A DNA stretch of 64,000 nucleotides, from assembly GCF_001724605.1 (NCBI RefSeq), contig NZ_MEEX01000016.1:24953-88952 (forward strand), given 5' to 3'. Numbering within the stretch: position 1 is the first letter of the stretch; each line of letters opens with the position of its first letter. This DNA comes from Phenylobacterium sp. SCN 70-31. GTDB lineage: Bacteria; Pseudomonadota; Alphaproteobacteria; Caulobacterales; Caulobacteraceae. The notes under the pieces were generated by a model, which had not been told where the DNA came from, did not search any database, and saw only the letters and a program-made list of their open reading frames with translations. The translations under genes and the position numbers were made by a program. This document shows positions 5,823-45,689 of this stretch, in pieces.

Positions 5823-6725
5823 ATGAGCCGCGACGCGCTGCCTCCGCTACACCTCCTGCTGGCCCTGGCGGTCGTGGCCGTCTGGGGAACCAACTTCGTC
5901 GTGATCAAATGGGGACTCGAAGCGTTCCCGCCCCTCACCTTCGCGGCGCTGCGGTTCACCTTCGCGCTCCTGCCCGCCGTCTTCTTCCTGAAGCGGCCCG
6001 ACGTCCCGTGGCGGAACCTTGCGACCTACGGCGTGCTGATCGGCGTGGGCCAGTTCGGCGTGCTCTACATCGCCATGACCCAGTGGATCTCGCCCGGGCT
6101 GGCCAGCCTGGTGGTGCAGGTGCAGGCTTTCTTCACCATCGGCTTCGCCATGCTCCTGGCGGGCGAGCGGGTGCGGACCTACCAGATCGCGGCCCTGACC
6201 CTGGCCGGCGGAGGGCTGGCCTGGCTGCTGACCCACACCGACGGCGACGCGACCCCCCTGGGTCTGGCGCTGGTGCTGTTCGCCGCCCTGGCCTGGGCCG
6301 GCGGCAACACGGCGCAGCGGGCCGCGGGCCCGATCAACGTGCTGGCCTATGTGGTCTGGGCGAGCCTGTTCTCGGCCCCGCCCCTGATCGCTCTGGCCCT
6401 CGTGCTGGAAGGCTGGCCGGCCGTGTCCCAGTCGATCGCCCACGCCACGGCGGCCGCCTGGGCCGCCGTGGCCTGGCAATCGGTGGGGAACACCATCTTC
6501 GGCTATTCGGCCTGGGCGTGGCTGCTGGCGCGGCATCCGGCGGCGTCGATCGCCCCTCTCGCCCTTTTGGTGCCGGTGTTCGGCATGGGGGCCTCGGCCT
6601 GGCTACTGGGCGAGAGCCTGGCGTCCTGGAAGCTGACGGCGGCGGCGCTGGTGCTGAGCGGACTGGCGCTGAACACGCTGTGGCCGCGGTTCGCCGCACT
6701 GCGAGCCGCGCGGACGGCGCCCTGA
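5823..6725 (+). CDS. EamA/DMT family transporter
   Basis: About 10 TM hydrophobic protein with EamA repeats (VVAVWGTNFVVIKWGLEAFPPLTFAALRF). Confidence 0.85.
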   Translation: MSRDALPPLHLLLALAVVAVWGTNFVVIKWGLEAFPPLTFAALRFTFALLPAVFFLKRPDVPWRNLATYGVLIGVGQFGVLYIAMTQWISPGLASLVVQVQAFFTIGFAMLLAGERVRTYQIAALTLAGGGLAWLLTHTDGDATPLGLALVLFAALAWAGGNTAQRAAGPINVLAYVVWASLFSAPPLIALALVLEGWPAVSQSIAHATAAAWAAVAWQSVGNTIFGYSAWAWLLARHPAASIAPLALLVPVFGMGASAWLLGESLASWKLTAAALVLSGLALNTLWPRFAALRAARTAP

Positions 6726-6746
6726 CCGGCGTCGCCGCCGCGGGCC

Positions 6747-7175
6747 TCAGACCTGCCGCGGCGCCGCAGGGTCCGGGACGGCCGGCACGGCCTCGATGAT
6801 CACAAAGGCCTGGGCGTAGGGATGATCGTCGGTGAGCGACAGGTGGATCGTCGCCGTCATGCCCGGCGGCGTCATCTGCCGGAGGCGCGCCAACGCACCG
6901 CCGGTGAGCGCCATCGTCGGCTGGCCCGAGCGCATGTTGACCACGCCCATGTCGCGCCAGAACACACCCCGGCGGATGCCGGTGCCGAGCGCCTTGGCGC
7001 AGGCCTCCTTGGCGGCGAACCGCTTGGCGTAGCTGGCGGCCGCGTCGGCCTTGCGATCCGAGCGCGTCCGCTCGATCTCGGTGAAGACCCGCTGGCGGAA
7101 GCGGTCGCCGAACCGGTCCAGCGAAGCCTGGATGCGGCGGATGTCGGAAAGGTCGGAACCGATGCCCAGGATCAT
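6747..7175 (-). CDS. acpS: Holo-[acyl-carrier-protein] synthase
   Basis: [46 protein letters not shown]. Confidence 0.95.
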
Positions 7176-7185
7176 CTGACGCCCG

Positions 7186-7944
7186 TCACGCGGCGGCCGA
7201 GGCCCGCGCCTCGTCCATGAGGGCGCGCATCCGCTGGATGGCCGGTCCCAGCCCGATGAAGATCGCCTCGCCGATCAGGAAATGGCCGATGTTGAGTTCG
7301 GCGACCTCGGGAATCTCGGCGATGGGCTTGACGGTCTCATAGTCGATGCCGTGGCCGGCATGGACCTCGAGGCCGAATTCGGCGGCGCGGGCGGCCGCAG
7401 CGCGGAGGTTGCCCAGCAAGGCCTCGGCCTGGGGCCGGCGCTCGCGCACGGCCTCGCAATAGGCGCCGGTGTGCAGTTCGACCACCTGGGCGCCGACGCT
7501 CTTCGCGGCCGCCACCTGGGCCTCGTCCGCGTCGATGAACAGCGACACCCGGATACCCGCAGCCGCCAGCCGGCGCACGGCGGGCGCGATCGCGTTCTGG
7601 CCGCGCAGGACGTTCAGACCGCCCTCGGTGGTCACCTCTTCGCGGCGCTCGGGCACGAGGCAGGCGGCGTGCGGCCGGTGGGCGAGCGCGATGGCCTCCA
7701 TCTCGGGCGTCACCGCGCACTCGAAGTTGAGCGGACGGCCGCGCCGACGGCAGATGACGGCAAGCTGGTCGATATCGGCGTCGGAGATGTGGCGACGGTC
7801 CTCGCGCAGGTGGGCGGTGATCCCGTCGGCGCCCGCGGCCAGGGCGACCTCGGCCGCGCGCACGGGATCGGGATAGCCCTCGCCCCGCGCGTTGCGCACG
7901 GTGGCCACGTGATCGATGTTGACGCCCAGTCTCAGCCGCGACAC
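7186..7944 (-). CDS. pdxJ: Pyridoxine 5'-phosphate synthase
   Basis: [44 protein letters not shown]. Confidence 0.97.
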
Positions 7945-7962
7945 GCGCTCATCCTCTGCTGC

Positions 7963-8547
7963 TCATCCCCGCAGCCGCTTCGAGCCCGGCTCCTCGGCCG
8001 GGATGGCGGCCAGCTCCGGCGGGATCTCGTCCGGCGCGTAGGAGGGCACGTCCACGGTCGCCAGCGCGACCAGCGGCCAACCCACGTCGGCCTTGCCGCC
8101 CGACCGATCGACGATGCAGGCGCAGCACAGGACGACGCCGCCCGCGGCCTCGACCGGCTCGACCGCCTCCCGGAACGAACCGCCCGTGGTGATGACGTCC
8201 TCGACCACCACCACCTTGGCGCCGGGCGCGATGGTGAAGGCGCGCCGCAGGCGGAACCGGCCGTCCTCGCGCTCGACATAGATCGACGGCACGCCCAGCG
8301 CCCGGGCCACTTCGTAGCCGGGGATGATGGCGCCCACCGCCGGGGCCACGATGACGTCGGGCTTTCCGAACCGCGCCACGATCCGGTCGGCCAGCGCCCG
8401 GCACAGACGCTCGGTGCGGTCGGCGTACTGGAAGACCAGGTTCTTCTGCAGGAACATCGGCGAATGGCGGCCGGAGGCCAGGATGAAGTGCCCCTCGCGC
8501 AGGGCGCCAGCGCCGCGGAACTCTTCGAGGACGTCGTCTGTGTTCAT
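7963..8547 (-). CDS. pyrE: Orotate phosphoribosyltransferase
   Basis: PRPP motif [37 protein letters not shown]. Confidence 0.95.
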
Positions 8548-8661
8548 GAGGCGCTCCCTTACACTGGCTCGTGCGCATTTGTCGCGCCGCGCGACGGCCC
8601 GGATGGCAACCTCGCCTTAGGAAGCGCCGTTCTAGTCTGCGGGCGAGACACGGGGAACAGG

Positions 8662-9681
8662 TTGGCCAAAGACGCCGCATCACGCCCGCCGGCCGCGAAG
8701 CCGAGCGCTCTGCCGGACGGCTTTCCCGAGGGCCTGAAGCCGCGCCTGCGCCTGTTCTTCAGCGTCGATCTGGAGGGGGCGACCCACTACAAGCAGTCAC
8801 ACAACACGTGGCGACCGGAAATCCTTCGATTCTACAGAGATTTCGATCTGATCCTTCAGAGCGAGTTCCACGCCTTCGCGTCGAACTACGCCGGGACGCT
8901 GAAAGCGCCGGAGTACTGGAAGAGCAACGGCGACGAACTGCTCTACACCTGCGAACTGACCAGCCTCAGCCACGCCTATGCGCTGATGCACGTGTGGATC
9001 TGGGCGCTGCACCGGTATCAACTCCAGCACGAGCCGGGAACCGAACACCTGGAGGCCAAATCCACCGCCTGGATCGGCCTCTTCCCCACCCCCAACGCCG
9101 AGGTGTTCTTCCGGCGGGGCGGCGAAGTGGTGGACGGCGACCTGTCCCGCGACGCCATCATCGTGCAGTCCGAACTGCGCGACGAATGGTACGCCAACCC
9201 GTCGAACGCCTCGATCACCCGAGAGTTCGTGGGCCCGTCGATCGATACGGGGTTCCGCCTCACCTCCTGGGCGACGCCGCACCAGCTCATCCTGTCGGTG
9301 GACCTCGCATTCCTGCTCACCAGCGGCGAGCCCGAGGGGATCGGACCGCTCACGCTGCGCCTGTCGGGCAAGCAGAAGCTGAAGGGCGTGATCGACGACC
9401 AGCCCTATCCCACCCTGTGGATTCCCGTAGGCGGCCTGGGTCTGGCGCGCAGCGCCGGCGGCCCCGTGGTGACCGACCGGGCCGAGATCCGCTCGGCCTG
9501 CGAGGCGGTGATCGAGCAGAACTACCAGTCGATCACGCCGCTGTTCCTGGACGACCGGCAGGACGGCTACGACTGGGCCCCGCCCTACATCCTCAAGCGC
9601 ATCCTGGCGCTGTGGGAGGACGAGCAACGCCACGCGCGCGAAGCGGGCAAGCCGCCGACGAAGGCGAGCGACGCGGCCTGA
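8662..9681 (+). CDS. Standalone divergent class III nucleotidyl cyclase-like protein
   Basis: In-frame TTG start candidate at 8662. Class III cyclase-like blocks: LRLFFSVDLEGATHYK (beta1/metal Asp), YWKSNGDELLYTCEL (GDE/metal Asp), EFVGPSIDTGFRLTSWATPHQLILSVD (GdxVNxAxRL-like). The longer 7282 ORF start is a shadow over pdxJ/pyrE. Confidence 0.6.
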   Translation: MAKDAASRPPAAKPSALPDGFPEGLKPRLRLFFSVDLEGATHYKQSHNTWRPEILRFYRDFDLILQSEFHAFASNYAGTLKAPEYWKSNGDELLYTCELTSLSHAYALMHVWIWALHRYQLQHEPGTEHLEAKSTAWIGLFPTPNAEVFFRRGGEVVDGDLSRDAIIVQSELRDEWYANPSNASITREFVGPSIDTGFRLTSWATPHQLILSVDLAFLLTSGEPEGIGPLTLRLSGKQKLKGVIDDQPYPTLWIPVGGLGLARSAGGPVVTDRAEIRSACEAVIEQNYQSITPLFLDDRQDGYDWAPPYILKRILALWEDEQRHAREAGKPPTKASDAA

Positions 9682-45576: not shown

Positions 45577-45602
45577 AACGTCATCCCTAGGAACGCGGTT
45601 CC
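45577..45602 (-). promoter_or_regulatory. EcfG-type promoter (GGAAC-N17-CGTT) directed to the egtB-egtD fusion
   Basis: Plus-strand AACG(45577-45580)-N17-GTTCC(45598-45602). Confidence 0.6.
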
Positions 45603-45606
45603 GGCT

Positions 45607-45631
45607 GGAACGCCCGGCGCTCCGCCGCGTT
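45607..45631 (+). promoter_or_regulatory. EcfG-type promoter (GGAAC-N16-CGTT) upstream of ECF sigma gene
   Basis: GGAAC(45607-45611)-N16-CGTT(45628-45631), 58 nt before the ATG. Confidence 0.65.
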
Positions 45632-45689
45632 CAACCTTTGCTAGTGTATGCTTAACCCCTGGTCGTAGAACCGGGTCGCGAGGGCGTGG

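Follow-up and report, generated by a model that had tools for sequence, protein, structure and literature searches.

Predicted head-to-head EcfG-type promoters between a fused ergothioneine gene and a non-canonical EcfG paralogue in Phenylobacterium

The general stress promoters read by EcfG (sigma-T) in Alphaproteobacteria have the form GGAAC-N16/17-CGTT. Non-canonical copies of EcfG are a recognized class (PMC3892343); different lineages evolved such paralogues independently (PMC4814048), and the secondary copies have several independent origins and differing roles (PMC3892343, PMC4814048). The gene for such a secondary sigma factor, sigU in C. crescentus or ecfG2 in Sphingomonas, is transcribed under the control of the primary sigma factor, and neither SigU nor the EcfG2 of Sphingomonas interacts with NepR (PMC4814048). 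Ergothioneine genes have also been placed in an EcfG regulon, namely egtB and egtD (SGRAN_4050/4049) of Sphingopyxis granuli TFA, as reported "for the first time" in 2020 (PMC7083833).

Here, we analyzed a 64-kb stretch of Phenylobacterium DNA (hereafter the window) in which a 55-bp segment, located between an egtB-egtD fusion gene and an ECF sigma factor gene, carries 2 EcfG-type motifs in head-to-head orientation (Table 1). We consider it probable (roughly 80%) that this segment is a divergent pair of genuine EcfG-type promoters, both read by the core EcfG of the genome.

Table 1. Coordinates of the features at the egt-sigma locus, numbered along the window
Feature	Position	Strand	Details
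egtB-egtD fusion gene, 734 aa	43226..45430	-	EgtB N-terminal part, EgtD C-terminal part; one frame
egt-facing EcfG-type promoter (predicted)	45577..45602	-	-35 GGAAC 45602-45598, N17, -10 CGTT 45580-45577
Gap GGCT, 4 bp	45603..45606	none	separates both -35 elements
sigma-facing EcfG-type promoter (predicted)	45607..45631	+	-35 GGAAC 45607-45611, N16, -10 CGTT 45628-45631
EcfG-like ECF sigma gene, 174 aa	45690..46214	+	PF04542, PF08281, PF22029; non-canonical

The two genes and the DNA between them

The preliminary description had placed an egtB-egtD fusion to the left of the promoters, and the profile searches bear this out: within one frame, the product scores above the curated equivalog cut-offs of both the EgtB model (TIGR03440, 566 bits versus 360) and the EgtD model (TIGR03438, 396 bits versus 291), and Pfam domains also back the call. 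The model for SenA, of selenoneine synthesis, scored 341 on the fusion, under its cut-off of 420. The fusion is kept in most relatives. In some genera, an in-frame TGA occurs near the linker or the match is lost there, as if egtB and egtD were separate genes; relatives noted for this comparison of fused and split forms are G010, G012, G027, G038, G040, G041, and G050.

The ECF sigma factor that had been described to the right of the promoters is also supported: it has regions 2 and 4, with matches to Sigma70_r2, Sigma70_r4_2, and PhyR_sigma2, and its top sequence match among solved structures is 5uxx, an RNA polymerase sigma factor. It is 51% identical to the core EcfG of the same genome and 58-63% identical to rhizobial sigma factors encoded beside phyR, and its region 4.2 helix, responsible for -35 recognition, is nearly identical to that of the core EcfG. 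The ECF regions 2 and 4, the PF22029 match, and the recognition helix assign it by sequence to EcfG (ECF15). The phyR/nepR/ecfG core is present in this genome: the single nepR match lies on another contig, C19, with phyR and the core ecfG adjoining. A canonical copy is one located beside nepR and phyR, and the window sigma factor, being away from the sole NepR match, is thus a non-canonical EcfG copy. In the phylogenetic tree, it groups apart from both the core EcfG clade of Caulobacteraceae and the extra EcfG-like sigma factor of 2 genomes of genus g22 (L179/L181), within a clade whose support is 97/87 (26 rows) and 96/90 (30 rows); the tree was built without the C. crescentus SigU sequence, and the L179/L181 sigma factor could not be matched to SigU. 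Judging by these comparisons, the window sigma factor is best named a non-canonical EcfG paralogue with a clade of its own. A third, more diverged ECF sigma factor with a PhyR_sigma2 match is encoded on contig C3 of the same genome (L037:1887-2501) and shares 39-44% identity with the other two.

Both motifs between the genes match the EcfG-type promoter exactly in their -35 element, -10 element, and spacer. The arrangement previously reported, GGAAC-N16-CGTT on the plus strand and GGAAC-N17-CGTT on the minus strand with the -35 elements head to head and 4 bp apart, agrees exactly with the sequence at 45577-45631, as does the distance of 58 nt (45632-45689) between the plus-strand -10 element and the ATG of the sigma gene (45690). 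On the minus strand, 146 nt separate the -10 element from the egt ATG (45430). The egt -35 element sits within a 13-bp palindrome, GGAACGCGGTTCC (45590-45602), and several relatives carry a similar one, GGAACTGCGTTC. A short G+C-rich hairpin (CCGGT...CCGG) may be present right before the sigma start in L040, L041, L047, L122, L123, L130, and L137. The leader regions of the locus gave no Rfam match to a known RNA element.

Frequency and conservation of the promoter motifs

GGAAC-N16/17-CGTT occurs only twice in the window, both times at this locus. We rejected this count as proof, since 2 matches per 64 kb are not significant alone: shuffled windows contain 0.82 on average, and 17 of 100 contain at least 2. 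The striking part is rather the head-to-head placement within one intergenic region. Across the genome (4.89 Mb), there are 53 sites (28 on the plus and 25 on the minus strand) compared with 31 for a reversed control pattern, and many of the 53 are probably chance matches. Head-to-head pairs no more than 100 bp apart number 4, whereas with random placement a single pair turned up in 1.4% of trials and no trial had two or more. Contig C19 holds the remaining 3 pairs, in the neighborhood of phyR/nepR/ecfG. Divergent EcfG promoters cluster around the phyR / nepR-ecfG core, with gaps of 25, 57, and 40 bp (L036, G000:C19:14000-31000, at ~6258-8879), the 40-bp gap being that of the divergent phyR / nepR-ecfG region.

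Relatives were drawn from named genomes (headed by Phenylobacterium and other Caulobacteraceae), 199 genomes of the family, and further fetched regions, and conservation was scored at 64 distinct Caulobacteraceae loci in which a sigma homologue and egtBD are divergent. The strict sigma-facing motif is found at 62 of the 64 loci, the egt-facing one at 43 (it is missing at 21), and both together at 41, while dinucleotide-shuffled regions give expectations of 0.22, 0.21, and 0.01, respectively; these counts come from related genomes and are not independent. Spacers outside 16-17 nt produced 0-2 matches at the 64 loci and reversed patterns 0 or 1. As the DNA flanking the motifs is strongly diverged in the relatives, the motifs look held by selection. 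Conservation in related genomes, on which the preliminary description had made its proposal depend, is therefore found for both motifs, and co-regulation of the ergothioneine gene and the sigma gene by the general stress sigma factor is the best reading of it.

The spacing between the promoters behaves differently. The gap measures 4, 8, 9, 14, 18, 20-23, 33-36, or 43 bp, most commonly 20-23 or 33-36 bp; 4 bp is the shortest and peculiar to the window's genome, and the gap class switches repeatedly on the tree. The 4-bp geometry described earlier thus stands for this genome and was rejected as a conserved feature: conservation applies to the two promoters and not to the distance between them.

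At 4 loci (L047, L174, L177, and L178), the egt-sigma intergenic region contains a symmetric promoter, GGAACG-N15-CGTTCC, which fits the EcfG motif both ways from one footprint. Such promoters occur in 39 of the 199 genomes, mostly one each and without enrichment, and none was found in the window's own genome. Given their rarity genome-wide, despite the 4 cases at the locus, we rejected them as a general device.

The sigma factor acting at the locus

Comparison of genera points to the core EcfG as the likely driver of egt. In genus g22, which has no window-type sigma factor within ~1.2 kb of egt, the strict egt motif accompanies 23 of 26 egtBD genes, and all 26 if GCAAC or TGTT is allowed, GCAAC being among the top two -35 boxes by frequency in Sphingopyxis (PMC7083833). 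By contrast, the motif is seen at 0 of 18 in genus g14, none of whose genomes has a NepR match; in genus g3, it is present in 12 of 24 cases without a neighboring sigma factor under the strict pattern and in 18 of 24 under the relaxed one. These genus patterns, which are uncorrected for relatedness, show the motif kept where the PhyR-NepR-EcfG system exists and absent without it (g14), with G108, G113, and G118 as exceptions. These 3 genomes, together with G148, belong to the window's genus and have egt but no window-type sigma factor adjoining it; the strict egt motif is found in 0 of the 4, the first 3 having NepR and G148 having no NepR and only a GCAAC variant. Because the motif is present in g22 without a neighboring window-type sigma factor and lacking in g14 without NepR, the core EcfG is the most likely regulator of egt, in line with the report on egtB and egtD in Sphingopyxis (PMC7083833). 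The sigma-facing promoter, in turn, is kept at 3 loci without egt found alongside (L151, L156, and L160) and at L145 of G184, a genome with no NepR match in which the window-type sigma factor is the sole EcfG-like match. G184 may be an incomplete genome or may rely on autoregulation.

The neighboring sigma factor might instead be the one that mainly serves both promoters, forming a local switch that controls itself and is dedicated to egt, with the core EcfG in a minor part. The better conservation of the sigma-facing motif (62/64), its retention in G184, the autoregulation of R. etli EcfG2 (PMC3892343), and the lack of an egt motif in the 3 genomes of the genus that have egt and NepR but not this sigma factor are all compatible with such a switch. 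We nevertheless regard it as unlikely: the egt motif persists in g22 and in half of g3 with no such sigma factor beside egt, the genus without NepR has no egt motif, and sigU and ecfG2 elsewhere depend on the primary sigma factor (PMC4814048).

It is also quite improbable that only the sigma-facing promoter is functional here, the egt-facing match being a remnant or a coincidence and egt being read from another promoter. At the density of 53 sites in 4.89 Mb, this 259-bp region should contain a correctly oriented match by chance ~0.001 times, the egt-facing motif is present in the near relatives L039 and L040, and a 17-nt spacer is found in 12 of 44 egt-facing motifs. Such a remnant would fit the 21 of 64 divergent loci without the strict egt-facing motif, among near relatives L120, as well as the combination of a 17-nt spacer with a gap of just 4 bp in this genome. 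The idea that the high G+C content of the DNA produced both motifs at random, which could appeal to the 17 of 100 shuffles and to the likely random origin of many of the 53 genomic sites (control 31), deserves next to no credence in view of the 62/64 conservation, the spacer-length specificity, and the head-to-head enrichment; conservation across the 64 loci effectively refutes it.

In the reading that we prefer, with the core EcfG acting on both promoters, we infer transcription itself, the sigma factor at each promoter, and the physiological effect from the DNA. Under stress, PhyR would take NepR off the core EcfG, whose gene is on contig C19, and EcfG-RNA polymerase would read both divergent promoters. 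Leftward, transcription of the egtB-egtD fusion would lead to more ergothioneine synthesis; rightward, the second, non-canonical EcfG-like sigma factor would be produced. The nearly identical -35 recognition helices imply that both sigma factors should read the same promoters, and the second one, using the same -35 and -10 elements, would probably feed back on its own promoter and amplify part of the regulon. The sigma gene is thus probably driven by EcfG, by itself, or by both, a cascade and autoregulation looking alike in sequence because the two helices are nearly the same. The preliminary description had offered either a SigU-like cascade or autoregulation; a second, EcfG-like sigma factor is confirmed, but orthology to SigU is not, given the separate clade and a tree lacking SigU, and "SigU-like" is reasonable as a label for the mode of the sigma factor.

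Several points speak against this reading. The strict egt-facing motif is missing at 21 of the 64 divergent loci and in all 4 genomes of the window's genus that have egt but no window-type sigma factor beside it, and the 4-bp gap leaves little room for two polymerases together. Simultaneous occupancy of both promoters by polymerase is improbable at this distance, and those of this genome may therefore compete. A more elaborate and, in our estimate, unlikely extension would make the sigma gene and egtBD a dedicated redox branch of the Caulobacteraceae general stress response: a NepR-free EcfG paralogue would autoactivate and lock in ergothioneine synthesis once the core response had begun, and in this genome competition across the 4-bp gap would let the same DNA choose between the antioxidant and more sigma factor.

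Comparison with known systems

Ergothioneine is a widespread antioxidant. The locus would link it family-wide to the general stress response of Alphaproteobacteria, and genera with and without the core system provide a natural control for this link. It also defines a clade of EcfG paralogues with a conserved gene neighbor, making the role of secondary EcfG copies directly testable in a culturable genus. Among searchable open-access papers, as judged by their titles and abstracts, we found no description of a conserved pairing of egtBD with an EcfG paralogue.

The motifs share the -35 element, -10 element, and spacer lengths of EcfG (sigma-T) promoters, and the phyR/nepR/ecfG core is present too; the difference is that the predicted pair sits head to head across a 4-bp gap. 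Sphingopyxis granuli TFA likewise has ergothioneine genes under an EcfG-type promoter, but its putative egtB and egtD are separate genes, described without mention of a divergent sigma paralogue (PMC7083833), whereas across Caulobacteraceae a fused egtBD and an EcfG paralogue have a promoter region in common. SigU of C. crescentus, EcfG2 of Sphingomonas and R. etli, and EcfG1 of Sphingopyxis resemble the window sigma factor as second EcfG-like sigma factors located away from the phyR/nepR core and having their own EcfG-type promoter, while the window sigma factor forms its own clade in the tree. The divergent phyR / nepR-ecfG region is similar in carrying two head-to-head EcfG-type promoters, with regulators on both sides; at the egt-sigma locus, a biosynthetic enzyme takes the place of one regulator. 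The components are familiar in type, be it EcfG promoters or secondary EcfG copies, and the pair of egtBD with an EcfG paralogue appears to be a new case built from them.
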